Source: Beroe forskalii (taxonomy: Eukaryota > Ctenophora > Nuda > Beroida > Beroidae). From it: a stretch of 64,000 nucleotides of DNA. Made by a program: the position numbers and the translations under genes. The notes below the pieces were generated by a model. That model was given only the letters and a program-made list of their open reading frames with translations. It searched no databases and was not told the DNA's origin. The stretch covers positions 372,001-436,000 of the forward strand of contig WFMF01000048.1 of assembly GCA_011033025.1 (NCBI GenBank), in the 5' to 3' direction. Shown piece by piece: positions 39,079-60,447 of this stretch; position 1 is the first letter of the stretch; each line of letters starts with the position of its first letter.

Positions 39079-39278
39079 CTGAAAACAGAAGGTGGGTTAG
39101 AGGGCACAAATACAGTTGGGTCAAGAGTCTTTTCAGTGAAAAATTGACATTCTACTTGGAAAATAATCAATAACGATTGTAATTATACTGATACTGACTC
39201 GTAACACAAAACATAATATTCCTCACAAATCACATTATTTCGGAATATTAATAGTATTGCAGTCAACAAATCACGAAC

Positions 39279-39435
39279 TTGTCTCGTGGTTGTGTTTCTC
39301 CGCACTGTTGTTCGGCTGTGACTTATCTGCGCAGGTTCCTCCGATAAGTCGCATACCCCGGGGGACCGGCCCCGGTCTACCACTCGACAACTTCTCTCGC
39401 TTCCTCCACTTAGCTCTCCTGTTCTGGAACCACAC
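39279..39435 (-). CDS. Paired-like homeobox gene, recognition-helix exon (copy 1)
   Basis: After the acceptor CTTCAG the frame begins VWFQNRRAKWRKREK, homeodomain residues 47-60. It shows the invariant Trp48, Phe49, Asn51 and Arg53 and Gln at position 50, the mark of the Q50 paired-like group. A basic, Gly/Pro-containing stretch follows, then NNSAEKHNHET. The frame meets a TGA at 39271-39273. A donor ACAA|GTTCGT just before it is conserved in both gene copies and gives the phase (1) needed by the last exon. The intron before this exon is phase 0 at homeodomain position 46/47, a position used by many PRD-class genes. The copy at 54148-54304 is almost identical. Confidence 0.88.
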
Positions 39436-39814
39436 CTGAAGTATGGGGATTGTAATGTACAGTTGGCAAACTGCTGAAGTAGGAATGTCAAAATAATATA
39501 TCTATATATGAAGTTGACAAACTACTCTGTAGCTATAGACTGTAATAAATGAGTGTTCAGCATTACACACGGAGTTTTTCTGGATACTGGAACGCTTGCT
39601 ATCATGCGTTTTAGTATAAAAATGGATATTTCTGTAGATATCTGTCCAGATATATCTGGATATCTTATATCTGGTTATGGCACATCTGGTAATATGGCAT
39701 ACCTAGATTACCCTTACGGCCCTTTGACGGGGCCTTATTAAGGCCTTATAAAGGTCGATATGTATCATAGTAACTTCCCGGAAAAATTTATGTACTGCAG
39801 CTGAATTTAATACT

Positions 39815-41230
39815 TCCTTGATCGCTTAATCAATAACAGAAATTTAATACAGTTAATAGTTATGCTTTTAATTTCGAAGAGAAAATTCAAAGCTTGATGG
39901 GAAATCAGTTTTGAGCTCCATCTTAATGCAACTTAACCATCCCGTAGATTTACTCCCATAATAATTCGTTAGTACCCCACACAACATTAACGAGCTTGCC
40001 ACTACAATTTATTCGAAATGTTCAATATAGCGCAGCGCTATAATATAATCCAGACAGTGTCACGTGACCATCTGTATAACATATGCAGAATATTCGTCCC
40101 AAGCGTCTAATGTCCTTAGTTTCTAGATAACAAAGGCATTGTTCTCTTTCGAAGGATTCCAGCAATTTGATTAGCATGGTTCTCCAGCATATAATAGAGG
40201 TACTGAATTTATCTCTTATGTTGATAGCACGAAACTGGTGAAAAGGATAAGGACGTGTCTTGAAACGAGTAGCTCAGTTTTTCAAGCCGGAAATCTTGAA
40301 AAATTCGGTCGAGACGTTCGACATTGCGATGAGCAGAAATTCTACGATCTAACCTGAAGCCATGGTGTGAAGTCCTAATTAAATCAGGTTTTTGCTGAAC
40401 TAACTCTTCAATCTGGCATCTTTTCCACGTCTATTATTCCACACAAAGGTTGTTTACGGTTTAATTTGATATATTCAGTGAAACTTAAACGCGCTCCTCT
40501 GTGAAAGACGGCTGAAAGCGGGGTGTGAGGAGTACACAACGAATCACGTGACATATCACGTGCCATATCACGTGACATATCACGTCACACGTGATTTGAG
40601 TGACGTTTCAGAGTTTGCCACATCTAGCATACAAAGGGGCTATTTAATAATATATAAGTGAACTAAATTATACGGCGAAAATGGCTACATTTTATTGAGT
40701 CTAGTTGTTGCTACTAAAAGGTAGAGATCTGAATATTACCGTATATTTCTACTAATGAGCAGTGGGCAACATTTCACAGTGGCTCGTGACACTGTCCTAT
40801 TTTATTATGTAACCGACCATTTTCCTCCACTAAAAGCTGCCACAAAAGCTCCTCTCTACCTCGAACAAAAGTCAAAACACACTTAATAGCCAGGGGATTT
40901 AGTCTACCGCACACACAATGCACAATGTCAATCAGAGAGTGACAGCGTCGACCAATAAAAAGGTCTAAAAGAGGGTCATGTGACTCGTAAAGGTCATGTG
41001 ACCAATCAGGTGACTTGTTAGTGTCGTGTAACAAGTTCACCGGAATATGGGGACTGAGGAGTTTTGACAAACTCTCATCCGACTTAATATACTCTGTCTT
41101 TAGTGAGACAGGAGAACTCTACACAGGAACTATGATCCCCAAATTACATTTTATAAAGGATCCATTAAGTTTTGAATATGAGTAATCGGGACATTTTTTG
41201 GGGACACTCAAAAATCATCAAAATGAATAT
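39815..41230. repeat. Homeobox-intron module, copy B
   Basis: Copy of modules A and C, in the intron just 5' of recognition-helix exon copy 1 (minus-strand sense). It lacks about 200 bp present in A and C near its right end (after CCATTAAG) and ends in GAATATGAGTAATCGGGACA. Pairwise differences from C are mostly small indels. Confidence 0.85.
40543..40602. promoter_or_regulatory. E-box array (CACGTGACATAT repeats), intron module B
   Basis: Tandem 12-bp steps ATCACGTGACAT place three full CACGTG cores and related CACGTC/CACACGTGA sites within 60 bp. TCACGTGA is the M-box/CLEAR-type E-box bound by bHLH-ZIP factors such as USF, MITF and TFE. The array has about four steps here, about six in module C and only degraded steps in module A. 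A regulatory role is inference. Confidence 0.45.
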
Positions 41231-41574
41231 GAGGAATTCTTGTAGAAAATCCAAAATCTATTCAAAAATCATCAACATGAATATGAATAATTCTACAAAA
41301 TTTGTAAAAGTTACTCAAAATTACTCATTAATCAAAAATGTGACTAATGACTACCACGTGACTGGGAACTGGTCACGTAAGATTTGCAAAGTCCAAATCA
41401 TGCGACCAAACTTGATATTTGATCGTTAGCAGGACACTCGTCACTCACCAAACATGGGTGCAATGTTGTTGTATAGTACAATTTGGCTGATATAGGTACA
41501 TAGTGATAAACTTTACACGGGTGCAACAATATGTAGCACGATATAATTTAAAAGGTTATCAAGTGTGGAGCATA

Positions 41575-42190
41575 GAATGCTGCGAAATGTGAACCAAAGA
41601 CTGGTGTCTTCGTTGGAACGTAAACGAGTGGAATTTAGATGCGAGCAAAGTTTAGAACTTAGAATGGACCTTGAATGTGGTTCAGGTAGGCTGGCGACAC
41701 GTGTGTAACACAGACTGGTTTCAAGTTGGGACGTAGACTTGAATAATGTCTGGATTTAGTGGAACATGGATTGGTGTCATGTAACAAGTTGATTGGAGTA
41801 AGTCAAGTGTGGAACGTAGACTGGAGTGAAGTGTGGAACGTAGACTGATGTCAAGTGTGAAACGTAGACTGATGTCTAGTGTGGACTGTTTACTGCAGTG
41901 TCTAGTTGAAAGTTATATTTTAGAAAATGTGGAACTTAGATTGGCGAAAAGGGTGGAACGTTGAGTCAGGTGAGGACCGTAGACTGCTGCCAGGTATGGA
42001 ATATCGACTGGTGTCTAGTTGGAAGTTGAAACGTAGATTAAGGTTTGAAATCCGCACTTGACACCAATCTACGTTCCACACTTTACTCCAAAAGATGCGT
42101 TCAATACTTTTCTACGTTCCAACTTGATACCAGTCTAACTCTATGCTCCACCAGTCTACGTTCCACGCTTAACTTCACCCCCTGGTGTGA
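41575..42190. repeat. GTGGAACGTAGACTGG repeat cluster, left
   Basis: About twenty diverged copies of a 22-26 bp motif around GTGGAACGTAGACTGGTGTC occur on the plus strand up to about 42050. The orientation then switches to the reverse complement (ACCAATCTACGTTCCACAC) to about 42175. The cluster is related to 44575-45530. Confidence 0.8.
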
Positions 42191-42400
42191 ACCCCTACTG
42201 ACCACTTCCTGATCTTACACTTATCCTTACACTTATCATTACTGTTTCAAAAGCACTTAAAATATCAATCAACCTTTAATGACGTTTTACTGGTCAATGA
42301 CTAGTCGATCAATGCACCCTAAACGCACCATAAGACCACAAACACACTCATAGTTAAGTTAGTTATGTTATTCAAGTTAGTCAAGTCAGTCAAGTCAAGT
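42186..42400. repeat. Left arm of a large inverted repeat
   Basis: About 215 bases starting GTGAACCCCTACTGACCAC are matched in reverse complement by 43005-43262 (ending GTCAGTAGGGGTTCACC) with moderate divergence. The pair brackets the 9-bp array. A foldback element or a large palindrome is the natural reading. Confidence 0.8.
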
Positions 42401-42985
42401 CAGTCAAGTCAGTCAAGTCAGTCAAGTCAGTAAAGTCAGTAAAGTCAGTCAAGTCAGTCAAGTCAGTCAAGTCAGTCAAGTCAGTCAAGTCAGTCGAGTC
42501 AGTCGAGTCAGTCGAGTCAGTCGAGTCAGTCGAGTCAGTCGAGTCAGTCGAGTCAGTCGAGTCAGTCGAGTCAGTCGAGTCAGTCAAGTCAGTCAAGTCA
42601 GTCAAGTCAGTCAAGTCAGTCAAGTCAGTCAAGTCAGTCAAGTCAGTCAAGTCAGTCAAGTCAGTCAAGTCAGTCAAGTCAGTCAAGTCAGTCAAGTCAG
42701 TCAAGTCAGTCAAGTCAGTCAAGTCAGTCAAGTCAGTCAAGTCAGTCAAGTCAGTCAAGTCAGTCAAGTCAGTCAAGTCAGTCAAGTCAGTCAAGTCAGT
42801 CAAGTCAGTCAAGTCAGTCAAGTCAGTCAAGTCAGTCAAGTCAGTCAAGTCAGTCAAGTCAGTCAAGTCAGTCAAGTCAGTCAAGTCAGTCAAGTCAGTC
42901 AAGTCAGTCAAGTCAGTCAAGTCAGTCAGGTCAGTCAAGTCAGTCAAGTCAGTCAGGTCAGTCAGGTCAGTCAGGTCAGGTCAGT
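42377..42985. repeat. 9-bp tandem array (AGTCAGTCA), about 67 copies
   Basis: Almost perfect repeats of AGTCAGTCA fill the centre of the inverted repeat, with a block of about eleven units carrying GTCGAGTCA (42490-42590). Nine bases is a multiple of three and the unit has no stop on the minus strand, so a 185-codon TDL-repeat frame appears there. It is incidental. Confidence 0.97.
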
Positions 42986-43004
42986 CATGTCAGTCAAGAC
43001 TGAC

Positions 43005-43262
43005 CTGACTGACTAGACTATCTTGATCGAGCTAACTTGACTGACTTGACTAATTTGACTGACTTGACTAACATAACTAACTCAACTATAAGTGTGTTTA
43101 CGGTCCCATGGTGCGTTGAGGGTGCATTGATCGATCACTGGTCATTGACCAGTAAAGCGTTGACATCATAAGGTTGAGTGATATTTTAACGGATTCAAAA
43201 CAGTAATGATAAATGTTAGAATAATGATCAGCAAGTGGTCAGTAGGGGTTCACCAGGGAGTC
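43005..43262. repeat. Right arm of a large inverted repeat
   Basis: Reverse-complement partner of 42186-42400. Shared pieces include the CACTGGTCATTGACCAGTAA segment and GATCAGCAAGTGGTCAGTAG. Confidence 0.8.
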
Positions 43263-43273
43263 ATTGGCATGCT

Positions 43274-44550
43274 TAGGGGGGGGGGGCAACCCCCCAAAAC
43301 CCCCCAAAATTAAGCCCCCCATTGGCAATTTGTTATATCCACCTGGGGGGCTAAATTAAACCCCCCAAAATTAAACCCCCCAAAATTAAACCCCCTATCG
43401 ACAGCAAAAATGGGTCTAAAATGGGTCAAAATTAAGCAACAAAAAAGGTACCATTTCGAAAAAGCGCAAAAAATCGGACACAAATTTGGTACCATTTCAA
43501 AAGGATACGTCTGAAAAATCAGAAACGAAAAAGGTACCAATTGAAAATGATGCCAAAAATCAAAAACAAAATTGGTACCATTTAATTAAAGGGCTGAAAA
43601 CCTGAAACAAAAACGGTACCATTTCAAAAAGGTGCCAAAATCAGAAACGAAAATTGGTACCATTTGGAAAATGAGTGAAAAATCACGAACAAAAATGGTA
43701 CCATTTCAAAACAGTTCCAAAAATATGCAAAAATGGTACCATTTGGAAAATGTGTCAAAAACCGGAAACAAAAATGGTACCGTACCATTTCAAAAAGTGC
43801 CAAAAATCACGAACAAAAATGGTACCATTTCAAAAAATCGCCAAAGATCACGACCAAAAATGGTATCATTTAAAAATCGTGGAAAAATCAGAAACAGAAA
43901 AGGGTACCATTTGGAAAATGTGCCAAAACCGGAAACAAAAATGGTACCATTTCAAAAAGGTGCCAAAAATCACGAACAAAAATGGTACCATTTGGATAAA
44001 TTGCCAAAAAATCACGAACAAAAACAAACGGTACCATTTCAAAAAAGTTCCAAAAAACTCGAACAAAAATGGTACCATTTCAAAAAAGTTCCAAAAATTA
44101 TGAACAAAATGGTACCATTTGTAAAATGTGTCAAGAATCGGAAACAAAAATGGTACCATTTCAAAAAAGTGCCAAAATCAAGACCAAAAATGGTACCATT
44201 TGGAGAATGTGTCAAAAATCACGAACAAACACAAACGGTACCATTTCAAAAAAGTGCCAAAAATCACGAACAAAAATGGTACCTTTTCAAAAAAGTTCCA
44301 AAATTATGAACAAAAATGGTACCATTTAGAAAATGTGCCAAAAATCACGAACAAAATTGGTACCATTTGGAAAGAAGTAGTCAAAAATAGTGAACATAAA
44401 TGGTACCATTTTGAAATGGTGCAAAATGCCCCTTTTTTCACAGTTAAGGTTGTTTTGACACTGAAAATTAAGCCCCCAAAACCCCCCAAAATTAAACCCC
44501 TATTGGCGATTTTTTATATCCACCAAAATTGAGGGGTTGCCCCCTACTTA
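43274..44550. repeat. About 40-bp repeat centred on GGTACC, bounded by inverted G/C-rich ends
   Basis: From about 43445 to 44410, 23 or 24 units of roughly 40 bp each carry an AATGGTACCATTT palindrome followed by AAAAATCACGAACAAAAA-like sequence. The left end (TAGGGGG...CAACCCC with ATTGGCAATTTGTTATATCC) and the right end are inverted relative to each other at the extreme tips (right end reads GGGGTTGCCCCCTA). They also share ACCCCCCAAAATTAA blocks. This looks like a foldback or MITE-like composite. No clear target duplication is visible. Confidence 0.7.
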
Positions 44551-44574
44551 CATACGACCCTCCATCCTAAAATA

Positions 44575-45530
44575 CACATTTGATACCAGTCTACGTTCCA
44601 CCAGTTTAAGTTCCACACTTTTTCCAATCTACGTTCTGCACTTTTCTACATATCAATGTTCCAATTAGACTTTGTAGTATACGGTCCAAAATAGGCACCA
44701 TTCTACGGTTCATACTTGACACCAGTCTTCTTTGAAGTGTGGAAAGAAGTTCTTTACACACTTAATTCTTGTCAACGTTCCAATATGTTACTTGACACCA
44801 ATATATTTTTCACTCCAGTCTTCATCCCAACTTGAAATCAGTCTTCGTTCCACCATTGCCAATTACAGTTACTCCAGTCTACGTTTCAAACTTAACTCCA
44901 GTCTACGTTCCTCACTTTTATACTTCAGTATATGTTCCAGGCTACGTTTGACACTGGACTTCAGTCAATTTTCCAACTTGAAACTAAATTGACACCAGCA
45001 TACTTTTACGTTTCACACTTTACACCGGTTGCACACTTTACTCCAATCTACGTTCCACAGTGGTAAAGTGGTAAGTGGAACGTAGATTGGAGTAAAGTGT
45101 AGATGTAGCCAGCTGTGGAACATAGACTGCTGTAAAATGTGGAACGTAGACTGCTGGAAAATGTAGATCGTAGACTGCTGTAAAATGTGAACCGAATACT
45201 GGTGTCAAGTTGGACCGGAGCGTGGAATGTAAATTGGAGTTAAGTGTGCAACGTAAACTGCAGTATCTATTTAATTTGGAATTACGTAGATTTGTAGAAA
45301 AGTACAGAACGTAGATTGGAGTAAAATGTGGAACTTAAAGTTAAACTGGTGTCAAGTGTGGAACGTAGAGTGGTATCAATGGTGGAACGTAGAGTGGTAT
45401 CAATGGTAGAACGTAGATTGGTTTCAAGTGTGAAATTTAGACTGGTGCCTAGTTTGGACCGTACACTGAGGTCAATTGTTGATCGCAGACTGGTGTCAAG
45501 AGTGAACCGTAAACTACAGTGAAACAACCT
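44575..45530. repeat. GTGGAACGTAGACTGG repeat cluster, right
   Basis: Same motif family as 41575-42190: reverse orientation (CCAGTCTACGTTCCAC) to about 45060, then forward orientation to about 45530. The two clusters together frame the inverted repeat and GGTACC block roughly symmetrically. Confidence 0.8.
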
Positions 45531-46914
45531 CCTTTATAGATTCATCTCAATCTCATATGATGAGGTAATCAGGATGAACTGGAATCAGTGCTACGCTGTG
45601 TTAATAGCTAAATGTTGTCAGAGCAAATAGCCCGAATAGGGGGTCAAAATCGACTGATGTTACTGTTAGACAAGACAAGTTTCTTGAGATAAGAACATAG
45701 CAGGAGAACTGTATTTAGACGAGTGTTGCCGTGAAAAATGACAAAAGACATGCACCAATTAGCATCATGGTAACACTTATGGACTATGGATTAAATAAAT
45801 TGGACATCCTTACCGGTTTTGATCAAATTTATTCAATGGGGCTGGCAACTGGCGAGATGGGGTGAGTCTGTGTATCCAACTTGCCAGCCCCATTAAAATT
45901 TATTTGATTATTCCTTGCAATTTTATCACTTAATAAAGAGCTGTTAACTGTTTCAAAGAAAAGGTGCTCAATTGTAATCAAAGACTGAGGGAGCTTTTGC
46001 CTAGCTAATTTGAACAATAATTGCATGCTGGATAAATTGCAACTCAGCCATCGTAAGCGATTTGCAAAAAAATAACATTCGGGAATCGGACATCTATGAA
46101 ATTGTTTGCTGCGTTGACTTGATGCAGAACGAAACGTTCACTATTTGCGCGCTGAGAATGCGCGCAATCCGCAGATCCGCGGATTAACAGTGAGCATAGG
46201 AAAAACGTTCGAAATTTTATGGTGCAGGTGTACCTACTTTTTACTGTCTTGTGGAATCTGAATACATTTTAACTTTAATAAATCATCAAAACTATCAAGA
46301 ATCAAACGTAACTATAAGTTGTGGGATGTCAAAACTCGAAAAAATGAATACTTAAGTAGAACGTGGGTATCGTCGAATGTTGATTGTTGATAAACAAAAT
46401 AGAGGAAAATGTTAAATCTAGAGCTCAATGGACTGGTCAATGTTCAAAAACAACGGAGATAAATTCACAAGAAGCTCAACAGAGGCACAAGGCTAACAAT
46501 AATAAAAAACAAAAACAGGAAAGTAATAGCACGTACAGGGAAACTTCATGTAAATCCATGTCCCGAGGTCCCGTTGGAACGGGTTGGAAAGCAATTGCAA
46601 ATAGATCAAGGCAGAATAGGAGGATTCCTGGAGGAGACTATCTTACAATAGATGCAATCATTTCCATAAATAAACTAAGAATTACATCAAAGCATCAATC
46701 AGAGAACCATAAGTACACACGCAGTACACACTACACAGCAACACACTGCATTCCATTTCTTTTCCCCAAGTTAACCTAATCAGTGCATGTTACCCAATGT
46801 AGATGAAATATCCAGATGAAGATAATGTTATCCAAACAAATTAACAACGCCGCACAATGTTTCCGGTACAAGATCAGAATTCAGAATAAAAGGGAGAATC
46901 AGAAAAATTGAATT
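45531..46914. other. Unrecognised sequence with one hairpin
   Basis: A hairpin lies at 45823-45906 (arms AATGGGGCTGGCAA and TTGCCAGCCCCATT extended by AT-rich pairing, about 25 bp each). An open frame of 131 codons (46384-46779, plus) is Lys/Gln/Asn/Ser-rich, matches nothing I recognise and may be chance. No gene is called. Confidence 0.4.
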
Positions 46915-47018
46915 TTTGAATATGAGTAATTGGTGTAATTTTACTCATTATTCGTCAAAAGAGTTTTTGAATATGTGTAATCCGCTATTTTTTTGGGGAC
47001 ACTCAAAAATCATCATGT
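46915..47018. repeat. Copy of the module-end sequence next to the large array
   Basis: TTTTTGAATATGAGTAAT and TTTGGGGACACTCAAAAATC are shared with the right ends of intron modules A (about 37925-37975) and B (about 41172-41222). This suggests that 41.2-46.9 kb is an insertion between module B and the array. Confidence 0.7.
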
Positions 47019-50000
47019 CAGAGTACGCATTGCACCCACCTGAACTCGCTGCTCTGTGAGCTGGAGTACGCATTGCACCCACCTGAACTCGCTGCTCTGT
47101 GTGAGCTGGAGAGTACGCATTGCACCCACCTGAACTCGCTGCTCTGTGAGCTGGAGAGTACGCATTGCACCCACCTGAACTCGCTGCTCTGTGAGCTGGA
47201 GAGAGTACGCATTGCACCCACCTGAACTCGCTGCTCTGTGAGTTGGAGAGAGTACGCATTGCACCCACCTGAACTCGCTCTGAGCTGGAGTACGCATTGC
47301 ACCCACCTGAACTCTCGCTGCTCTGTGAGCTGGAGAGTACGCATTGCACCCACCTGAACTCGCTGCTCTGTGAGCTGGAGAGAGTACGCATTGCACCCAC
47401 CTGAACTCGCTGCTCTGTGAGCTGGAGAGAGTACGCATTGCACCCACCTGAACTCGCTGCTCTGTGAGCTGGAGAGAGTACGCATTGCACCCACCTGAAC
47501 TCGCTGCTCTGTGAGCTGGAGTACGCATTGCACCCACCTGAACTCGCTGCTCTGTGAGCTGGAGAGAGTACGCATTGCACCCACCTGAACTCGCTGCTCT
47601 GTGAGCTGGAGAGAGTACGCATTGCACCCACCTGAACTCGCTGCTCTGTGAGCTGGAGAGTACGCATTGCACCCACCTGAACTCGCTGCTCTGTGAGCTG
47701 GAGTACGCATTGCACCCACCTGAACTCGCTGCTCTGTGAGCTGGAGAGAGTAGGCATTGCACCCACCTGAACTCGCTGCTCTGTGAGCTGGAGTACGCAT
47801 TGCACCCACCTGAACTCGCTGCTCTGTGAGCTGGAGAGAGTAGGCATTGCACCCACCTGAACTCGCTGCTCTGTGAGCTGGAGTACGCATTGCACCCACC
47901 TGAACTCGCTTCTGTGAGCTGCTCACTGTGAGCTGGAGAGAGTACGCATTGCACCCACCTGAACTCGCTGCTCTGTGAGCTGGAGAGTACGCATTGCACC
48001 CACCTGAACTCGCTGCTCTGTGAGCTGGAGAGAGTACGCATTGCACCCACCTGAACTCGCTGCTCTGTGAGCTGGAGTACGCATTGCACCCACCTGAACT
48101 CGCTGCTCTGTGAGCTGGAGTACGCATTGCACCCACCTGAACTCGCCTCTGTGAGCTGGAGTACGTGCACCCACCTGAACTCGCTGCTCTGTGAGCTGGA
48201 GTACGCATTGCACCCACCTGAACTCGCTGCCTGTGGAGAGAGTACGCATTGCACCTGAACTCGCTGCTCTGTGAGCTGGAGTACGCATTGCACCCACCTG
48301 AACTTGCTGCTCTGTGAGCTGGAGTACGCATTGCACCCACCTGAACTGAGCAAGCATTGCACCCACCTGAATTGCTGAGCTGGAGAGAGTACGCATTGCA
48401 CCCACCTGAACTTGCTGCTCTGTGAGCTGGAGAGAGAGTACGCATTGCACCCACCTGAACTCGCTGCTCTGTGAGCTGGAGAGAGTACGCATTGCACCCA
48501 CCTGAACTCTGCTCTGTGCTCTGTTGCACCCCACCTGAACTCGCTCGTGAGCTGGAGTACGCATTGCACCCACCTGAACTCGCTGCTCTGTGAGCTGAGG
48601 AAATTGCACCCACCTGAACTCGCTGCACCCACCTGAACTTGCTGCTCTGTGAGCTGGAGAGAGTACGCATTGCACCCACCTGAACTCGCTGCTCTGTGAG
48701 CTGGAGTACGCATTGCACCCACCTGAACTCGCTGCTCTGTGAGCTGGAGAGTACGCATTGCACCCACCTGAACTCGCTGCTCTGTGAGCTGGAGAGAGTA
48801 CGCATTGCACCCACCTGAACTTGCTGCTCTGTGAGCTGGAGAGAGTACGCATTGCACCCACCTGAACTCGCTGCTCTGTGAGCTGGAGAGTACGCATTGC
48901 ACCCACCTGAACTTGCTGCTCTGTGAGCTGGAGAGTACGCATTGCACCATTGCACCCACCTGAACTCGCTGCTCTGTGAGCTGGAGAGAGTACGCATTGC
49001 ACCCACCTGAACTCGCTGCTCTGTGAGCTGGAGAGAGTACGCATTGCACCCACCTGAACTCGCACCCACCTGAGCTTGCACCCACCTGAACTGCTGCTCT
49101 GTGAGTTGGAGAGAGAGTACGCATTGCACCCACCTGAACTCGCTGCTGCTCGCTGCTCTGTGAGCTGGAGAGAGTACGCATTGCACCCACCTGAACTCGC
49201 TGCTCTGTGAGCGGGAGAGTACGCATTGCACCCACCTGAACTCGCTGCTCTGTGAGCTGGAGAGAGCGCATTGCACCCTGTGACCTGAGCTGGAGTACGC
49301 ATTGCACCCACCTGAACTCTGCTCTGTGAGCTGAGAGTACGCATTGCACCCACCTGAACTCGCCGCTGCTCTGTGAGTTGGAGAGAACTCGCTGCTCTGT
49401 ACGCATTGCACCCACCTGAACTCGCTGCTCTGTGAGCTGGAGAGAGTACGCATTGCACCCACCTGAACTCGCTGCTCTGTGAGCTGGAGTACGCATTGCA
49501 CCCACCTGTGAGCTCTGGAGCTAGTAAGCATTGCACCCACCTGAACTCGCTGCTCTGTGAGCTGGAGTAAGATTGCACGCATTCCCACCTGAACTCGCTG
49601 CTCTGTGAGCTGGAGAGTACGCATTGCACCCACCTGAACTCGCTGCTCTGTGAGCTGGAGAGAGTACGCATTGCACCCACCTGAACTCGCTGCTCTGTGA
49701 GCTGGAGAGAACTTGTACGCATACATTGCACCCACCTGAACTCGCTGCTCTGTGAGCTGGAGTACGCATTGCACCCACCTGAACTCGCTGCTCTGTGAGC
49801 TGGAGTACGCATTGCACCCACCTGAACTCGCTGCTCTGTGAGCTGGAGAGAGTACGCATTGCACCACCTGAACTCGCTGCTCTGTGAGCTGGAGAGAGTA
49901 CGTATTGCACCCACCTGAACTCGCTGCTCTGTGAGCTGGAGAGAGAGAACGCATTGCACCCACCTGAACTCGCTGCTCTGTGAGCTGGAGAGAGTACGCA

Positions 50001-52870
50001 TTGCACCCACCTGAACTCGCTGCTCTGTGAGCTGGAGAGAGTACGCATTGCACCCACCTGAACTCGCTGCTCTGTGAGCTGGAGAGAGTACGCATTGCAC
50101 CCACCTGAACTCGCTGCTCTGTGAGCTGGAGTACGCATTGCACCCACCTGAACTCGCTGCTCTGTGAGCTGGAGAGAGTACGCATTGCACCCACCTGAAC
50201 TCGCTGCTCTGTGAGCTGAGAGAGTACATTGCTGGAGAACTCGAGCTGGTGTACGCATTGCACCCACCTGAACTCGCTGCTCTGTGAGCTGGAGAGAGTA
50301 CGCATTGCACTCACCTGAACTCGCTGCTCTGTGAGCTGGAGAGAGAACGCATTGCACCCACCTGAACTCGCTGCTCTGTGAGCTGGAGAGTACGCATTGC
50401 ACCCACCTGAACTCGCTGCTCTGTGAGCTGGAGAGAGAGTACGCATTGCACCACCTGAACTCGCTGCTCTGTGAGCTGGAGAGAGTACGCATTGCACCCA
50501 CCTGAACTCGCTGCTCTGTGAGCTGGAGAGAGTACGCATTGCACCCACCTGAACTCGCTGCTCTGTGAGCTGGAGCGCAGTATTGCACCCACCTGAACTC
50601 GCTGCTCTGTGAGCTGGAGTACGCATTGCACCCACCTGAACTCGCTGCTCTGTGAGCTGGAGAGTACGCATTGCACCCACCTGAACTCGCTGCTCTGTGA
50701 GCTGGAGAGAGTACGCATTGCACCCACCTGAACTCGAACTGCTCTGTGAGCTGGAGAGAGTACGCATTGCACCCACCTGAACTCGCTGCTCTGTGAGCTG
50801 GGTACGCATTGCATTGAACCCTCTGTGGGCTGGAGACTCGCATTGCTCTGCTGCTCTGTGAGCTGGAGAGTACGCATTGCACCCACCTGAACTCGCTGCT
50901 CTGTGAGCTGGAGAGAGTACGCATTGCACCCACCTGAACTCGCTGCTCTGTGAGTTGGAGAGAGTACGCATTGCACCCACCTGAACTCGCTGCTCTGTGA
51001 GCTGGAGTACACATTGCACCCACCTGAACTCGCTGCTCTGTGAGCTGGAGAGAGAACGCATTGCACCCACCTGAACTCGCTGCTCTGTGAGCTGGAGAGA
51101 GTACGCATTGCACCCACCTGAACTCGCTGCTCTGTGAGCTGGAGAGTACGCATTGCACCCACCTGAACTCGCTGCTCTGTGAGCTGGAGTGCACCTGCAC
51201 CCACCTGCACCCACCTGAACTCGCTGCACCCACCTGAACTCGCTGCTCTGTGAGTTGGAGAGTACGCATTGCACCCACCTGAACTCGCTGCTCTGTGAGC
51301 TGGAGAGAGTACGCATTGCACCCACCTGAACTCGCTGCTCTGTGAGTTGGAGAGAGTACGCATTGCACCCACCTGAACTCGCTGCTCTGTGAGCTGGAGA
51401 GTACACATTGCCACCTGAACTCGCTGCTCTGTGAGCTGGGTACGCATTGCACCCACCTGAACTCCGCTGCTCTGTGAGCTGGAGTACGCATTGCACCCAC
51501 CTGAACTCGCTGCTCTGTGAGCTGGAGAGAGAGTACGCATTGCACTCTGCCTCTCGTGCTCTGGAGCTGGAGTACGCATTGCACCCACCTGAACTCGCTG
51601 CTCTGTGAGCTGGAGAGAGTACGCATTGCACCCACCTGAACTCGCTGCTCTCTGTGAGCTGGAGTAAGCATTGCACCCACCTGAACTCGCTCTGTGAGCT
51701 GGAGTACGCATTGCACCCACCTGAACTCACTGCTCTGTGAGTTGGAGAGAGTAAACATTGCACCCACCTGAACTCGGCTCTGTGAGCTGGAGTACGCATT
51801 GCACTCACCTGAACTCGCTGCTCTGTGAGCTGGAGAGAGAGAACGCATTGCACCCATCTGAACTCGCTGCTCTAGCCGAGCTGGAGAGTACGCATTGCAC
51901 CCACCTGAACTCGCTGCTCTGTGAGCTGGAGAAGAGGCGCATTGCACCCACTTGAACTCGCTGCTCTGTGGTTGGAGAGAGTACGCATTGCACCCACCTG
52001 AACTCGCTGCTCTGTGAGCTGAGAGAGTCGCATTGCACCCATCTGAACTCGCTGCTCTGCCTGGAGCTGGAGTACGCATTGCACCCACCTGAACTCGCTG
52101 CTCTGTGAGCTGGAGAGAGTACGCATTGCACCCACCTGAACTTGCTGCTCTGTGAGCTGGAAGAGTACGTATTGCACCCACCTGAACTCACTGCTGTGAG
52201 CGAGAGAGTAATGCATTGCCCTAATTGACTCCGCTTAACTCTGGAGCTGGAGAGAGTGCCTTGCACCCACCTGCTCACTGCCTATTGAGTTGGAGAAAGT
52301 ACACGTTGCCCCACCTGAACTCGCTGAGAGGCACGCATTTTAACCCACTGAACTCGCTGCTCTGGTGAGTTGGAGAGAGTACGCATTGCACCCACCTGAA
52401 CTCGCTGCCCTGTGAGCTGGAGAGAGTACATATTGCACCCACCTGAACTCGCTGCTCTGTGAGCTGGAGAGAGTACATTGCACCCAATCTGAACTCGCTG
52501 CTCTAAGAGCTGGAGTACGCATTGCACCCACCTGAACTCGCTCCTCTGTGAGCTGGAGAGAGAGTACGCATTACCCACCTGAACTCGTTGCTCTGTGAGG
52601 CTGGAGAGAAAGTACGCATTGCACCCACCTGAACTCGGAATACACCACCTGGTTTCAGCTGTGAGCTGGAGAGAGTACGCATTGCCACCTGAACTCGCTG
52701 CTACTGGAGAGAGTGTGCACCACCTGAACTCGCTGCTCTGTGAGCTGAGAGAGCACATTGCACCCACTGAACCTCAAGCTACTCTGGGTGAGCTGAGAGA
52801 GGATGCATTGCACCCACCTGAACCTGCTGGCTCTGTGAGTTGGAGAGAGTACGCATTGCAATCTAATTCC
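47019..52870 (-). repeat. Minisatellite made from a homeobox exon/intron boundary, array 1 (about 125 copies)
   Basis: Units of 43, 45 or 47 bp differ by GA steps. On the minus strand each reads TACTC(TC)nCAGCTCACAG, then AGCAGCGAGTTCAG, then GTGGGTGCAATGC. This is the end of the homeodomain exon (coding [10 protein letters not shown]) joined to its 5' splice site and the first intron bases, in the same order as at 59476-59520. There is no stop codon in any minus frame, so very long frames run through it. Noise grows toward the right: from about 52190 onwards units are heavily altered by small indels, resembling unpolished sequence. Confidence 0.97.
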
Positions 52871-52879
52871 GAACTGCTG

Positions 52880-53020
52880 CCTGGGTGAGCTTTAGAGAGG
52901 AAGTATCCCCTCCCCTCCTAAAACACACATCTGGGTCTTTGAAAGACTTCTCCCCTGCTGGGCCATGTAATCGTTATCCTGTTCTGACGCTGCAACTTGG
53001 GCTTCCTTTGGATTTCACTT
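52880..53020 (-). pseudogene. Damaged copy of the first homeodomain exon
   Basis: Minus-strand sequence matches 59520-59650 piece by piece: AAGCCCAAGTTGCAGCGTC, AACAGGATAACG, CCCAGATGTGT and GGGAGGGGA. Many single-base and short deletions destroy the frame, and the acceptor reads CAAAG instead of CAG. It lies at the right end of array 1, exactly as the intact exon lies at the right end of array 2. Either a decayed duplicate or poorly corrected sequence would explain it. Confidence 0.75.
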
Positions 53021-53520
53021 TGAAAAGAGAATGGGCTGAATGTTGGAAATTGTACGAAGAAATCCATGATTAATTAATTAATTCGGTGAAGGAGGATGGG
53101 GTAAGAATGATTGAATTTCACTGATTATTTCAAGAAGATTAACACCTAGAGGTTTTAATGGGTCAATGTAGAGTTGTGAAGTAAGAGCACTATTTGAAAA
53201 TATTGAAAAGGGGTATGCACACAAGTTGAAGTTATTTCCTTGAATATAACACTCTGACTCAAGTCATTTGTTTTGTTTGTTGAAAAGACTGTTTAAGCCT
53301 GGTACGATGATCTCCTTAAAGCTGGTGTAACAATTAAACTCATTTAATTTGGATATGCAGTAATAAATACTTTGTAATTTTAAAAATATAATCCAAGCTT
53401 TTATCAAACAATGATATCAAATAAATTATATCTGGTCACGATTCATAAACGGAGAGAAGGCGGGGAGAGGAGGTCCTGTGGCTAATCTTCGAAACAACCT
53501 CCTCCTCAGATTATAACTAA
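53021..53520. repeat. Duplicate of the sequence upstream of the first homeodomain exon
   Basis: Homologous to 59650-60157 with many small indels. Homology stops at 53520|53521, where the 3' end of the duplicated last exon begins. This marks the junction of the tandem duplication. Confidence 0.8.
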
Positions 53521-53534
53521 ACATCTCGACACTC

Positions 53535-53951
53535 CCATCAGTAGCTGCTGCTGGCAGCACTTGTAGGAGGTGATGACATCAATGACTTGCAGCAGTTGGG
53601 CACTGCCACACGGTCAGCTGATGCGTGAGTTAAGTCCTGGGTGTAAGTGTTCTGAGGTGAAGTGGGGTTGGTAATGCCGGATGCGGCGTCACCCCGGTGG
53701 AGGAGGATAGGGAGGAGGCTGAGAGGAGGCCCCAGCTGATGGAGGTCTCGTAGGGAGGCGGAGGGGGGGGAGAGGGAGGGAGGGAGGGGTGCCCAGGGTC
53801 GGGGGCTCAGGTTCAGGGACGAGGGAGAGAGTGGGTGGAGTGGACCCAGCCACGAGGGAACTTGTTGAGGGGCAGGGGCTTTCCAGATCAGTCCTGAGCT
53901 GTGGGTGGAGGGGTGGGCAGCTCGTAGGGACAGAGGAGGTGATGGGAACCC
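53535..53951 (-). pseudogene. Paired-like homeobox gene, last exon (second copy, with indels)
   Basis: Acceptor CTGTTTTCAG and GGGTTCCCATCACC match the intact copy at 38735-39078, and HSSGLIWKAP is shared. Base losses in C-rich runs (for example after GAGCTGC) move the frame several times relative to the intact copy. One long open frame survives only by switching register, so the product differs. These could be true mutations or homopolymer errors. Confidence 0.7.
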
Positions 53952-54147
53952 CTGAAAACAGAAGGGTGGGTTAGAGGCACAAATACGTGAGGTCAAAGTC
54001 TTTTCAGAGAAAAATTGACATTCTACTTGGAAAATAATCAATAACGATTGTAATTATACTGATACCGACTCGTAACACAAAACCTGTATCCTCACAAATC
54101 ACATTATTTCGGAATATTAATAGTATTGCAGTCAACAAATCACGAAC

Positions 54148-54304
54148 TTGTCTCGTGGTTGTGTTTCTCCGCACTGTTGTTCGGCTGTGACTTATCTGCG
54201 CACGTTCCCCCGATAAGTCGCATGCCCCGGGGGACCGGCCCCGGTCTACCACTCGACAACTTCTCTCGCTTCCTCCACTTAGCTCTCCTGTTCTGGAACC
54301 ACAC
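54148..54304 (-). CDS. Paired-like homeobox gene, recognition-helix exon (copy 2)
   Basis: Acceptor CTTCAG is followed by VWFQNRRAKWRKREK, with Trp48, Phe49, Gln50, Asn51 and Arg53. The same basic tail and ACAA|GTTCGT donor as copy 1 follow. It differs from copy 1 by a handful of substitutions and keeps an open frame. It is the copy nearest to the intact first homeodomain exon (59491-59648), 5.2 kb upstream in gene sense, and so the likeliest splicing partner for it. Which of the two recognition-helix exons is used in vivo cannot be decided from sequence. Confidence 0.85.
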
Positions 54305-54659
54305 CTGAAGTAATTATAATGTACAGTTGGGAAGCTGCTGGAGTAGGAATGTCAAAATATTATGCAGTTGGCAAACTACTCTGTAGCTAGACTGTAATTT
54401 ATGAGCGTCCAGCATTACACACTGAGAGTTTCTTGGTGTCTATAATACTGAAACGCATGCTCTCAGGGAAATAAAAATTTGAATGGAAACTTCTGTAGAT
54501 ATCTAATAGATATCTACAGAAATTTCCATTATCTATCTAGATATCACGATATGTTAAATTTGTTATATCTGGTAATGGAATATCTCGTAATACGGAATAC
54601 CTACATTACCTTTACGGCCCTTTGGCGGGGCCTTTTAAGGCCTCTTATAAAGGACCAAA

Positions 54660-54975
54660 TCTACCTTTCCAAATTGATTCAGAGAGCTCATGGTTAAAAA
54701 AGGTCGGTATTCCACTTTTTCCGATTCCACTAGTGATATGCAATGATGCATTTCATAAAGGTTTAGCTCGTAAATGACAGTTAATTAATCGGTTGAATAA
54801 CGGCCGGTTAAATAAATTAAGTCCAGATAATTTTAACTCAATGGCATCTTTAGTATCCTCACTATCTGGGATATGTTAGTATTTTTGACATATAATTCCC
54901 CTGTGATACATAGGGGAATTATATAATGCGGTCTTGGGGCTGGTTCAAGAAGGCCGTTGATATCAAGGTTGATAT
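54660..54975. other. Segment present only in gene copy 2, with a hairpin
   Basis: Compared with the matching place in copy 1 (about 39752), about 315 extra bases are present. They contain ATAATTCCCCTGTGATACATAGGGGAATTAT in two halves as a hairpin at about 54892-54926. It is an insertion here or a deletion in copy 1. Confidence 0.55.
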
Positions 54976-55024
54976 GTAATGAGTAACTTCGCGGAAAAAT
55001 TTATGTACTGCAACTGAATTTAAT

Positions 55025-56600
55025 ACTTCCTTGATCGCTTAATCACTAACAGAAATTTAATACAGTTATATTTAATACAGTTTTTATAATAGTTATGCTT
55101 TTAATTTCGAAGAGGAAATTCAAAGCTTGATGGGAAATCAGTTTTGGTCTCCATCTTAATGCAACTTAACCATCCTTAGATTTTCCCGCAATAATTCGTT
55201 AGTACCCACACAACATTAACAGGCTTGCCACTACAGTTTATTCGGAAATGTTCAGTATAAAGCGCAGCGCTTTAATATAATCAGACAGTGTCGTGACCAT
55301 CTGTATAACATATGCAGAATACGTCCCAAGCGTCTAATGTCCTTAGTTTCTAGATAACAAAGGCATTGTTAGAAGGATTCCAGCAATTTGATTAGCATGG
55401 TTCTAGCTCCGGCATATATAATAGAGGCACTGAATTTATCTCTTATGTTGATAGCACGAAACTGGTGAAAAGGATAAGGACGTGTCTTGAAACGAGTAGC
55501 TCAGTTTTTCAAGCCGGAAATCTTGAAAATTCGGTCGAGACGTTCGACATTGCGATGAGCAGAAATTCTACGACCTAACCTGAAGCCATGGTGGCAAGTC
55601 CTAATTAAATCAGGTTTTGCTGAACTAACTCTTCAATCTGGCATCTTTTCATCTATTATTCACACAAAGGTTGTTTAGGTTTAATTTGATATATTCAGTG
55701 AAACTTAAACGCGCTACTCTGTGAAAGACGGCTGAAAGCGGGGTGTGAGGAGTACACAACGAATCACGTGACATATCACGTGACATATCACGTGACATAT
55801 CACGTGACATATCACGTGACATATCACGTCACACGTGATTTGAGTGACGTTTCAGAGTTTGCCACATCTAGCATACAAAGGGCTATTTAATAATATAAGT
55901 GAACTAAATTTATACGGCGAAAATAAAGCTGCATTTTATTGAGTCTAGTTGTTGCTACTAAAAGGTAGAGATCTGAATATTACCGTATATTTCTACTAAT
56001 GAGCAGTGGGCAACATTTCACAGTGGCTCGTGACACTGTCCTATTTTATTATGTAACCGACCATTTTCCTCCACTAAAAGCTGCCACAGAAGCTCCTCTC
56101 TGCCTCGAACAAAACACACTTAATAGCCAGGGGATTTAGTCTACCGCACACACAATGCACAATGTCAATCAGAGAGTGACAGCGTCGACCAATAAAAAGG
56201 TCTAAAAGAGGGTCATGTGACTCGTTAATGTCACGTGACTGATCAGGTGACTTGTTAGTGTCGTGTAACAAGTTCACCGGAATATGGGGACTGAGGAGTT
56301 TTGACAAACTCTCATCCGACTTAATATACTCTGTCTTTAGTGAGACAGGAGAATCCTACACGGGAACTATGATCCCCAAATTACATTTTGTAAAGGATCC
56401 ATTAAGTTTTATTGACACGAGAGCAAAGAATTAAAAACGTTGAGCAAAAACTGCTATTTTATAAATTGTGAAATTCAACTGTAGATTAACGACTTCGGAA
56501 TGGACATGTTGCCCTTTTGCTCTAAACTCTTGAGGGTAGGGGTTTTGTTTTTTAGCCAAGGCTATTCGGTATACAGTCCTCCTGGGTCCCTTCTGACATT
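55025..56600. repeat. Homeobox-intron module, copy C
   Basis: Copy of modules A and B, in the intron between the two homeodomain exons of gene copy 2. It keeps the right-hand part (GCTATTCGGTATACAGTCCT) found in A but absent from B. Confidence 0.85.
55763..55842. promoter_or_regulatory. E-box array (CACGTGACATAT repeats), intron module C
   Basis: Five successive CACGTGACATAT steps are followed by CACGTCACACGTGATTTGAG. The same array has fewer steps in module B and only degraded ones in module A, so its copy number is unstable. Binding by bHLH-ZIP factors is plausible from the motif only. Confidence 0.45.
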
Positions 56601-56679
56601 ATAAGCCATAGGGCAAATGAAAAACAGGAAATAAACATGATGCGTTACTGAGAAAGTGTTCTGTAGGAACTCAACTGCT

Positions 56680-59519
56680 CTGTGAGCTGGAGAGTACGCA
56701 GCATTGCACCACCTGAACTCGCTGCTCTGTGAGCTGGAGTACGCATTGCACCCACCTGAACTCGCTGCTCTGTGAGCTGGAGTGCATTGCACCCACCTGA
56801 ACTCGCTGCTCTGTGAGCTGGAGAGAGTACGCATTGCACCCACCTGAACTCGCTGCTCTGTGAGTTGGAGTACGCATTGCACCCACCTGAACTCGCTGCT
56901 CTGTGAGCTGGAGTACGCATTGCACCCACCTGAACTCGCTGCTCTGTGAGCTGGAGAGAGTACATTGCACCCACCTGAACTCGCTGCTCTGTGAGCTGGA
57001 GAGAGTACGCATTGCACCCACCTGAACTCGCTGCTCTGTGAGCTGGAGAGCACGCATTGCACCCACCTGAACTCGCTGCTCTGAGCTGGAGAGAGTACAT
57101 TGCACCCACCTGAACTCGCTGCTCTGAGCTGGAGTACGCATTGCACCCACCTGAACTCGCTGCTCTGTGAGCTGGAGAGTACGCATTGCACCCACCTGAA
57201 CTCGCTGCTCTGTGAGCTGGAGAGAGTACGCATTGCACCCACCTGAACTCGCTGCTCTGTGAGCTGGAGTACGCATTGCACCCACCTGAACTCGCTGCTC
57301 TGTGAGCTGGAGTACGCATTGCACCCACCTGAACTCGCTGCTCTGTGAGCTGGAGTACGCATTGCACCCACCTGAACTCGCTGCTCTGTGAGCTGGAGTA
57401 CGCATTGCACCCACCTGAACTCGCTGCTCTGTGAGCTGGAGTACACCCACCTGAACTCGCTGCTCGTGAGCTGGAGTACGCATTGCACCCACCTGAACTC
57501 GCTGCTCTGTGAGCTGGAGAGTACGCATTGCACCCACCTGAACTCGCTGCTCTGTGAGCTGGAGAGAGTACGCATTGCACCCACCTGAACTCGCTGCTCT
57601 GTGAGCTGGAGTACGCATTGCACCCACCTGAACTCGCTGCTCTGTGAGCTGGAGAGAGTACATTGCACCCACCTGAACTCGCTGCTCTGTGAGCTGGAGT
57701 ACGCATTGCACCCACCTGAACTCGCTGCTCTGTGAGCTGGAGAGAGTACGCATTGCACCCACCTGAACTCGCTGCTCTGTGAGCTGGAGTACGCATTGCA
57801 CCCACCTGAACTCGCTGCTCTGTGAGCTGGAGTACATTGCACCCACCTGAACTCGCTGCTCTGTGAGCTGGAGAGAGTACGCATTGCACCCACCTGAACT
57901 CGCTGCTCTGTGAGCTGGAGAGAGTACGCATTGCACCCACCTGAACTCGCTGCTCTGTGAGCTGGAGAGTACGCATTGCACCCACCTGAACTCGCTGCTC
58001 TGTGGAGAGAGTACGCATTGCACCCACCTGAACTCGCTGCTCTGTGGGCTGGTACCCACCTGAACTCGCTGCTCTGTGAGCTGGAGAGAGTACGCATTGC
58101 ACCCACCTGAACTCGCTGCTCTGTGAGCTGGAGAGAGTACGCATTGCACCCACCTGAACTCGCTGCTCTGTGAGCTGGAGAGAGTACGCATTGCACCCAC
58201 CTGAACTCGCTGCTGGAGAGAGTACGCATTGCACCCACCTGAACTCGCTGCTCTGTGAGCTGGAGAGAGTACGCATTGCACCCACCTGAACTCGCTGCTC
58301 TGTGAGTTGGAGAGAGTACGCATTGCACCCACGTGAGCTGGAGAGTACCACCTGAACTCTGCTCTGTGAGCTGGAGAGAGTACGCATTGCACCCACCTGA
58401 ACTCGCTGCTCTGTGAGCTGGAGAGAGTACGCATTGCACCCACCTGAACTCGCTGCTCTGTGAGCTGGAGTACGCATTGCACCCACCTGAACTCGCTGCT
58501 CTGTGAGCTGGAGAGAGTACATTGCACCCACCTGAACTCGCTGCTCTGTGAGCTGGAGAGTACGCATTGCACCCACCTGAACTCGCTGCTCTGTGAGCTG
58601 GAGAGAGTACGCATTGCACCCACCTGAACTCGCTGCTCTGTGAGCTGGAGTACGCATTGCACCCACCTGAACTCGCTGCTCTGTGAGCTGGAGAGAGTAC
58701 GCATTGCACCCACCTGAACTCGCTGCTCTGTGAGCTGGAGTACGCATTGCACCCACCTGAACTCGCTGCTCTGTGAGCTGGAGTACGCATTGCACCCACC
58801 TGAACTCGCTGCTCTGTGAGCTGGAGAGAGTACGCATTGCACCCACCTGAACTCGCTGCTCTGTGAGCTGGAGAGAGTACGCATTGCACCCACCTGAACT
58901 CGCTGCTCTGTGAGCTGGAGTACATTGCACCCACCTGAACTCGCTGCTCTGTGAGCTGGAGAGAGCCGCATTGCACCCACCTGAACTCGCTGCTCTGTGA
59001 GCTGGAGAGAGTACGCATTGCACCCACCTGAACTCGCTGCTCTGTGAGCTGGAGAGTACGCATTGCACCCACCTGAACTCGCTGCTCTGTGAGCTGGAGT
59101 ACGCATTGCACCCACCTGAACTCGCTGCTCTGTGAGCTGGAGAGAGTACGCATTGCACCCACCTGAACTCGCTGCTCTGTGAGCTGGAGAGAGTACGCAT
59201 TGCACCCACCTGAACTCGCTGCTCTGTGAGTTGGAGAGAGTACGCATTGCACCCACCTGAACTCGCTGCTCTGTGAGCTGGAGAGAGTACGCATTGCACC
59301 CACCTGAACTCGCTGCTCTGTGAGCTGGAGAGAGTACGCATTGCACCCACCTGAACTCGCTGCTCTGTGAGCTGGAGAGTACGCATTGCACCCACCTGAA
59401 CTCGCTGCTCTGTGAGTTTGGAGAGAGTACGCATTGCACCCACCTGAACTCGCTGCTCTGTGAGCTGGAGAGAGTACGCATTGCACCCACCTGAACTCGC
59501 TGCTCTGTGAGCTGGAGAG
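56680..59519 (-). repeat. Minisatellite made from a homeobox exon/intron boundary, array 2 (about 62 copies)
   Basis: Same unit as array 1 but cleaner. It begins inside the intact first homeodomain exon: the exon's own last 29 bases and donor form the first unit (59485-59519). The founder has GCTTACTCTCTCC where later units have GCGTACTCTCTCC, so a short similarity between exon and intron could have seeded slippage. Units are 43, 45 or 47 bp by loss or gain of TC. A few truncated units occur (for example about 57440, 58045, 58330). Confidence 0.98.
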
Positions 59520-59648
59520 AGTAAGCTATCTCCTCCCTCCCAAACACATCTGGGTAGTGGGTCTCCTGGAACGACTTCTCTAGGCCCTCTAGTTGGGCTG
59601 CTGTGAACGTTATCCTGTTTCGACGCTGTAACTTGGGCTTTGATTTCA
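59491..59648 (-). CDS. Paired-like homeobox gene, first homeodomain exon
   Basis: After CTCGCTTTTCAG the frame reads [20 protein letters not shown] and continues to [11 protein letters not shown] and [10 protein letters not shown], giving homeodomain residues 1-46 (Arg5, Phe8, Leu16, Phe20, Leu40, Arg44). It ends at CAG|GTGGGT, a phase-0 intron at 46/47. RRNR, THYPDVF and RVQVWFQNRRAKWRK are PRD-class hallmarks, and together with Gln50 indicate a paired-like gene without a recognisable paired box here. I cannot assign it to a named family. The protein would bind DNA in the nucleus as a transcription factor. Its exon end has seeded array 2. The exon enters in phase 1, whereas the N-terminal exon ends in phase 2, so an intervening exon is probably missed. 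Confidence 0.92.
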
Positions 59649-60447
59649 CTGAAAAGCGAGAATGGGTTGGAATGTTGAAATTGTACGAAGAAATCCATGA
59701 TTAATGAATTAATTCGGTAGTTGAGGATGGGGAACGAATGATTGAATTTCCACTGATTATTTCTCAAGAAGATTAATTAATCTAGAGGTTTTAACGTGGG
59801 TCAATGTAGGAGTCAGGAAGTAAGAGCACTATTTGAAAATATTGAAAAGGTATGCACACAAGCTGAAGTTATTTCCTTGACATAACACTCGACTCAAGTC
59901 ATTTGTTTTGTTTGTTGAAAAAGACCTGTTTAAGCCTGGTACGATGATCTCCCCCAAGCTGGTGTACTCACCAACTCATTTAATTGGATATGCAGTAATA
60001 AACACTTTGTAATTTTAAAAATATAATCTGCTTTTATCAAACAATGATATCAACAAATTATATTCAATACGATTCAATAAACGGAGGAGAAGGCGGGGAG
60101 AGGAGGTCCGTGGTACACGCTCCTTTCGAAACAACCTCCTCTCAGATTATAACTAAATTTGGAGCTCCCGACCCCTGCCCCAACATCGTACGACGTGTCA
60201 TGACACACCAATTGACAGGTGGCCAATGAGCGGCCCGCATCCCCGTCACGTGACACCGGATTATCCACTTGGGAAAGGTATGAAGTAATGGTACAAGGTC
60301 CGGGCGAGCGGTGCAGGCAAATAGGATCAATTAGCTGTGACAGGGAGGAGGTACGCTCCTCTCCAACGAGGCTAGGGGAGCACTAACTGAACTACATTCC
60401 TCCCCCTACACCTTTCCCAGACCCACTGACTCACTGCTATTCAATTA
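59649..60447. other. Intron sequence upstream of the first homeodomain exon
   Basis: The part up to 60157 is duplicated at 53021-53520. No coding signal is recognised. An unidentified small exon of the homeobox gene could lie between here and 61916. Confidence 0.5.

Follow-up and report, generated by a model that had tools for sequence, protein, structure and literature searches.

A minisatellite spanning a homeobox exon-intron boundary in the genome of the ctenophore Beroe forskalii

The homeobox gene and the array at the end of its first homeodomain exon

The DNA analysed here, a stretch of 64,000 nucleotides from the Beroe forskalii assembly (hereafter the window), carries a paired-class homeobox gene on its minus strand, with the homeodomain split over two exons, a and b (Table 1). 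In the genome profile search, homeodomain residues 1-46 were matched at C558:431488-431625, which corresponds to exon a. Exon a ends with CGAGTTCAG|GTGGGT, and exon b opens at 54304 with GTGTGGTTCCAG (VWFQN), directly preceded by ttacttcag. Joining the two exons yields a complete homeodomain (Pfam 1-57, E 1.8e-24), whose top match among solved structures is aristaless-like 4, on which the assignment to the paired class is based. In a paralogue on contig C167, an intron likewise interrupts the homeodomain at Q46|V47 (LTEARVQ|GTGAAT ... CCCCAG|GTGTGGTTCCAG; approximately 850 nt), and no donor copy was seen in the 500 bases of this paralogue that were inspected by eye; at locus L054, the intron at the homeodomain 46/47 place measures approximately 290 nt. 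Since the joined exons give a full homeodomain and the C167 paralogue is split at the same place, the end of exon a is considered sound and lies where the first-pass annotation of this DNA had put it, with the donor at 59491/59490; position 59648, given there as the limit at the exon end, is rather the probable start of exon a.

Table 1. Features of the homeobox locus and of its presumed second allele (coordinates in the window).
Feature	Position	Strand	Description
Exon a	59491..59648	-	Homeodomain residues 1-46 and a few preceding residues; 5' end set by the acceptor ttttcag, counted by eye
Exon b	54140..54304	-	Begins VWFQNRRAKWRKREKL... after the acceptor ttacttcag|; drawn to the first in-frame stop
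Intron, allele 2	54305..59490	-	Separates homeodomain residues 46 and 47; 5186 nt long, the array making up more than half
Array 2 (allele 2)	56667..59523	-	About 62 units of 47/45/43 bp; from TRF, donor count and unit analysis
Array 1	47020..52870	-	About 125 units; most likely the same intron, allele 1; exon-side 1.5 kb raw-read-like
Exon b of allele 1	39271..39435	-	98% identical to exon b of allele 2
Low-quality exon a copy and upstream flank	52871..53521	-	About 7 indel events per 100 bp
Apparent haplotype junction	53521..53522	.	Exon-a flank abuts exon-b flank; 53522 corresponds to 38641

The array that covers this boundary (array 2) is built from a 47-bp unit comprised of the last 33 bases of exon a (TACTCTCTCCAGCTCACAGAGCAGCGAGTTCAG, 11 codons, read as TACTCTCTCCAG CTCACAGAGCAGCGAGTTCAG) and the first 14 bases of the intron (GTGGGTGCAATGCG), a division that corrects the 29 exon plus 14 intron bases proposed initially. 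Units of 45 and 43 bp correspond to the 47-bp unit minus one or two CT steps. TRF delimited the array at 56667-59517/59519 with a period of 47 and 64.6 copies; the real exon end is represented by the most exon-proximal 33 bases (59491-59523). By direct count on the minus strand, array 2 contains 63 CAG|GT donors, 61 of them exact copies of CAG|GTGGGT, with a spacing between neighbours of mostly 47 (23 cases), 43 (15) or 45 bp (10). The central claim of the first-pass annotation, that a homeobox exon-intron boundary has grown into a large minisatellite whose units nearly all carry a donor, is thus borne out by about 62 units and 61 exact donors.

The units are very homogeneous: among the 59 units of at most 52 bp, 46 fall into five exact types, and a column count over 60 of the 62 units (two units of 66 and 32 bp being omitted) revealed five substitutions, the other variation consisting mostly of CT steps and short deletions. 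The nine donor positions showed no substitution, against about one expected under an even distribution; because units were cut at CAG, which favours intact donors, no inference on donor conservation is drawn from this count. Across the 216-Mb assembly (1134 contigs), the exact 30-base word formed by the exon end and donor was counted 166 times, namely 126 times in the window, where the occurrences divide into 72 and 54 between the two arrays, and 40 times on contig C109. Exact copies are therefore limited to C558, the contig of the window, and C109, and the array is not part of a dispersed satellite.

The window contains further long minisatellites, located at 18774-20126, 20383-21696, 24074-25186, 27926-31712 and 33972-36257, with units of 30, 34, 21 and 23 bp and a GTTAACGGTCG family present in both orientations.

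Array 1, contig C109 and the number of loci

The second array of about 125 units that had been reported at 47019-52870 was recovered by TRF (47020-52637, 124.6 copies, with additional rows to 52860), and contains 125 CAG|GT donors by direct count, 110 of which are exact CAG|GTGGGT. For the array on C109, the corresponding numbers are 88 and 68. The assembled arrays comprise about 62 (array 2), 125 (array 1) and 100 (C109) units, the latter two including low-quality stretches.

In the genome searches, which score the best candidates, exon b gave two full-length matches (100 and 98%) and two short ones in paralogues, and exon a was listed twice with the homeodomain profile, in the window and on C109, the copy beside array 1 being absent from the list. 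Two complete matches to exon b and two clean ones to exon a fit most simply with a single locus that has two alleles. A real tandem duplication bridged by one low-quality read is less likely, and the same counts led to the rejection of a separate gene locus for array 1. By self-alignment, pieces of 38641-53521 match 53522-60157. Just past the junction, 4.8 indel events per 100 bp were counted between the two copies, dropping to 0.4 at 54100-54340, while the remaining intron differs between the presumed alleles by 2.6% substitutions and 1.9 indel events per 100 bp. Two stretches of the C109 flank, when compared with the window, showed 1.2-1.6% substitutions and between 0.5 and 1.1 indel events per 100 bp. 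When the arrays were compared as maps of unit types, none of 200 shuffles reached the alignment score of array 1 with array 2, in which units 1-62 of array 2 align to units 56-124 of array 1; the two maps against C109 were uninformative, their scores being reached by 28 and 23 of 200 shuffles.

Judged by their sequences, arrays 1 and 2 are most likely the two alleles of one intron, partly assembled in series, and not two loci; both the exon copy counts and the indel profile point this way. Such serial joining is in keeping with long-read assemblies of Beroe ovata, which are described as nearly doubled in size through separately assembled alleles (PMC11184263). The exon-side 1.5 kb of array 1 (about 51400-52870) contains hardly any standard-type unit, and since the extra units of array 1 sit on this poor-quality side, the difference in length between the alleles may be overstated.

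Several observations on the assembly of this region are recorded here. Raw-read-like sequence with many indels of 1-2 bases extends over about 51400-54100, at the apparent join of the two haplotypes. C109 is noisy throughout and worst over its first 1300 bases (L009 1-1300), at a contig end inside the array, which looks like an uncorrected read. A segment of about 5.8 kb (41173-47019) is present in allele 1, is missing at the matching place of allele 2 and looks like an insertion; a direct repeat of 51 bases, whose copies at 41170 and 46965 differ by about six mismatches, lies on either side of it, and the segment contains a 70-copy array of 9 bp and a 23-copy array of 41 bp. A third, indel-rich partial copy of the intron at 36435-37892 matches 39812-41173 and 55025-56603. 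At matching places of the presumed alleles, a ATCACGTGACAT repeat has 3.9 copies (40543-40589) versus 5.9 copies (55763-55833).

Boundary copies at other genes

Whether array-like copies accompany other exon boundaries was examined in a hand-picked sample of 18 homeobox exon ends (19 fetched, from 104 matches), 20 of 120 kinesin matches and 20 of 135 kinase matches, mostly partial-domain matches whose boundaries were taken from the ends of protein-profile matches, not from transcripts. The sample includes the related pairs L062/L065 and L091/L093. For each match end, a zone of 80 bases was aligned against the adjoining 260 bases, and a score of at least 36 was counted as a copy. A copy was present anywhere in 13 of 58 donor zones and covered the match end in 10 of 58. 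Eight of the 58 are clear donor cases (L054, L055, L065, L069, L078, L081, L095 and L106); L096 and L107 are donor cases of low complexity. Among acceptor zones, 7 of 47 contained a copy anywhere and 5 of 47 a copy across the boundary (L071, L074, L078 and the close paralogues L091 and L093), seven of these 47 zones being homeodomain starts, which need not be exon starts. Copies were also found in 10 of 58 intron interiors, and in none of 47 exon interiors (45-125 nt before the exon end, compared with the intron). In a mismatched control, which covered the donor zones, comparison with flanks of other loci gave 2 copies in 3306 pairings.

A first, smaller test had given copies in 6 of 36 donor zones, 3 of 16 acceptor zones, 5 of 36 intron interiors and 2 of 36 exon interiors; the exon-interior matches were those of L055 and L069, where copies reach deeper into the exon, and the window of the larger test lay further from the exon end. 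Left out were L067 (a match without a boundary) and, in the first test, L075 and L080 (no GT near the end) and the acceptors of L070 and L089 (no site). Neither the smaller nor the larger test showed a preference for donors; as intron interiors carry copies as often as donor zones do, donors are not singled out. Local tandem duplications seem to arise readily in this genome; those that leave one good exon edge would survive, and copies inside exons would be removed by selection.

Individual cases resemble the homeobox array in their construction. On the donor side, L054 has four donors in a 36-bp unit (...ACACAAGTCAAG|GTAGGTGCC...), L055 about ten copies that look donor-like by eye, some of which include longer stretches of exon, and L069 three copies of a longer exon end. 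The acceptor side shows mirror cases, in which the intron end and the first exon bases are repeated upstream of kinesin exons: in L071, tttcag|CTAAGTCTGGTAGATCTGGCAGG (the kinesin stretch LSLVDLAGSERAA) occurs five times upstream of the exon start, in L074 the gene's own exon start is repeated five times, and one exon of L078 bears an array at either end. Outside the boundary sample, L021, fetched for its homeodomain, contains at 82-398 five copies of a 62-bp unit (GAGCACAACTC...GAGCACTTG|GTAAGAG, with GGGGTTAG before it), and is likely another donor-side boundary array.

Larger units may be copied as well: at G000:C291:171201-174881, matches to kinesin profile positions 221-264 and about 266-300 recur within 4 kb, which suggests tandem duplication of whole exons.

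The same assembly includes a mitochondrial contig of 13,339 bp (G000:C1134; L045 and L046), with 57% T and long frames on one strand only. Its COX1 gene uses TGA as Trp and contains AGA/AGG, at positions that we take to be conserved Arg. ARAGORN found no tRNA on this contig. A Proton_antipo_M match of 494 aa is read as the probable ND5; after it come two frames, of 368 and 313 aa, that have no Pfam match. For the mitochondrion of Beroe forskalii, use of the coelenterate code, a tRNAscan-SE search that yielded no tRNAs and two unidentified frames (1,065 and 669 bp) downstream of ND5 have been described (PMC6991124), the second frame being shorter in that account than on C1134. On these features, the contig probably comes from a Beroe-like ctenophore.

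Splicing outcomes, precedents and interpretation

In computed joins of the 63 CAG|GT donors of array 2 to exon b, 26 were in frame and 37 out of frame; 25 of the 26 in-frame donors would place 78 or more extra residues between positions 46 and 47 of the homeodomain, and only the first, exon-proximal donor gives an intact homeodomain. RNA folding of one to three units was no stronger than that of shuffled sequences (z -0.30, 0.51 and 0.67).

Tandem duplications of exon-intron boundaries have been described in amphioxus genes under the name of 'mirages' (PMC3087553, PMC3902484), which answers the first-pass remark that no described case of this kind was known at this scale. Amphioxus mirages are thought not to disturb splicing, and the globin gene BflGb6 carries boundary repeats in 6 and 3 copies (PMC3087553); mirages are also on record for Adh and, together with similar repeats in PGBD5, for troponin C (PMC3902484). 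As in the mirages of these accounts, the units of the Beroe array span a boundary, combining 33 exonic with 14 intronic bases, and retain the AG/GT splice signal (63 CAG|GT, 61 of them exact CAG|GTGGGT). Donor and acceptor sides are affected in amphioxus and likewise within this one genome (donors in L054, L055, L069 and L078; acceptors in L071, L074 and L078). Copy number is reported to differ between amphioxus haplotypes; at the Beroe locus it may differ, the assembled counts being about 62 (array 2), 125 (array 1) and 100 (C109), with low-quality stretches. Aberrant assembly, as seen at the Beroe locus, is mentioned for one amphioxus locus too. The differences are those of size, with about 62 and perhaps 125 copies compared with the 6 and 3 of BflGb6, and of setting, the present case being a homeobox gene of a ctenophore genome, known here from DNA. 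The homeobox array looks like a member of the mirage class, a large one in a new setting. By title, and within open-licence papers, the ctenophore minisatellite literature yielded nothing on point.

A minisatellite with multiple splice donors was reportedly found by Turri, Cuin and Porter (1995) in the human interferon-induced gene 6-16/IFI6, with a unit said to be 12 nt long. Two downstream repeat units of this minisatellite are described as acting as splice donors (PMC4526556); it resembles the Beroe array in offering several donors, use of the extra ones being reported for IFI6. Internal tandem repeats at exon-intron boundaries also occur in human segmental duplications, where the variable ones have, on average, units of 30 bp in 4 copies, and a part in the creation of introns is discussed for them (PMC2812944). 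These repeats, and Rogers' AG/GT duplication model of intron gain (as cited in PMC3087553), share with the Beroe array the tandem duplication of a segment with splice signals; the Beroe intron lies at a place common to the C167 paralogue, and no intron gain is seen.

We consider it probable that the array is a tolerated boundary-spanning minisatellite of the mirage type, with splicing from the exon-proximal donor and removal of all other copies as intron. A short tandem duplication would have copied the last 33 bases of the homeodomain exon together with the first 14 bases of the intron, after which slippage or unequal exchange would have expanded and homogenised the copies to tens, with a copy number that probably differs between the two alleles. 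The spliceosome is predicted to join the exon-proximal donor to exon b; the other copies would leave inside the intron, the protein would be unchanged and the array would be selectively neutral. It is on this removal of the spare copies with the intron that the proposed tolerance depends. The donors of the array are identical in sequence, the preference for the first one being an assumption. On the sequence evidence, the array is most likely harmless to the gene.

The first-pass annotation had instead seen in each unit a possible 21-base microexon coding for LTEQRVQ, with its own acceptor and donor, which could supply homeodomain variants with repeated LTEQRVQ. Every 47-bp unit indeed shows TACTCTCTCCAG before CTCACAGAGCAGCGAGTTCAG|GTGGGT, but the supposed acceptor, a pyrimidine tract plus CAG, is the exon's own coding sequence (its YSLQ codons), and the introns implied between units would measure 22-26 nt, versus 5186 nt at this gene, about 850 nt in C167 and about 290 nt in L054. 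Homeodomain positions 46/47 fall inside the recognition helix, where the extra residues would sit, and the joins that break the frame (37 of 63) or insert at least 78 residues (25) leave the variants unsupported; microexons appear exceedingly improbable. That the exon truly runs on through array 2 is likewise very hard to uphold. The sense strand of the array is stop-free in three frames, except for one stop at the far edge (position 2847 of 2861), giving open frames of 987, 1009 and 1043 aa, of which the 1009-residue one continues exon a. However, when the 14 intron bases were shuffled and the exon part was kept, 54% of the shuffles were also stop-free, and the openness of the three frames was accordingly discarded as evidence; moreover, the homeodomain would be lost after residue 46, and array 1 and C109 have stops in all frames, partly from sequence error. 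The sole other Pfam match in the 1009-residue frame (56671-59700, minus strand) is FtrD-like, with no stretch passing alone, and is probably spurious; matches of this type are a hazard for automatic gene prediction.

A role as a splicing regulator, in which competing donors or U1 sites would tune the amount of intact homeobox mRNA and array length would set the output, is unlikely. It would draw on the 61 identical, strong-looking donors within one intron (CAG|GTGGGT scores 31 by hand with ad hoc weights, a value reached by 9 of 36 scored donors) and on the human minisatellite reported to supply several donors. Kinesin and kinase genes, however, have boundary copies too, as do acceptors and the interiors of introns, and nothing therefore points to a homeobox or donor function; the donor-position count is uninformative for the reason given above, and folding gave a null result. 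The U1 snRNP landing area suggested at first pass is unsupported as well. Assembly artefact as the source of the large arrays has in its favour the raw-read-like sequence at about 51400-54100 and on C109 and the haplotypes apparently joined in series, but is scarcely credible given that 46 of 59 array 2 units fall into five exact types, that the array recurs in a separate contig, and that eight clear donor and five acceptor cases show the same structure at other loci. Doubt is limited to the lengths of the arrays and the doubling of the locus.

Returning to the tolerated mirage, its interest lies in the scale of the array and in how often such structures recur across this genome. Among the sampled donor ends, about one in seven (8 clear cases of 58) has at least one spare copy. 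We tentatively propose, as a possibility somewhat short of even, that a genome-wide process keeps making such arrays and that, given how frequent boundary copies are at donors and acceptors and how often their splice signals are intact, the spliceosome must select sites by position and not by strength, taking the copy that lies closest to the exon body and yields the shortest exon. If this is true, the homeobox array with its approximately 60 identical donors would be an extreme natural test in a non-bilaterian animal.

The occurrence of these arrays in a ctenophore suggests that mirages, which in the literature consulted are reported from amphioxus, are not a cephalochordate peculiarity, and mirages beyond amphioxus bear on intron evolution and on the assembly and annotation of such genomes. 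The choice of the spliceosome among many identical sites is usually studied with engineered minigenes. Here, one endogenous intron with approximately 60 identical donors provides a natural test of splice-site choice, and since spare donor copies are frequent elsewhere in the genome, RNA sequencing of this animal could read the rule of choice directly.
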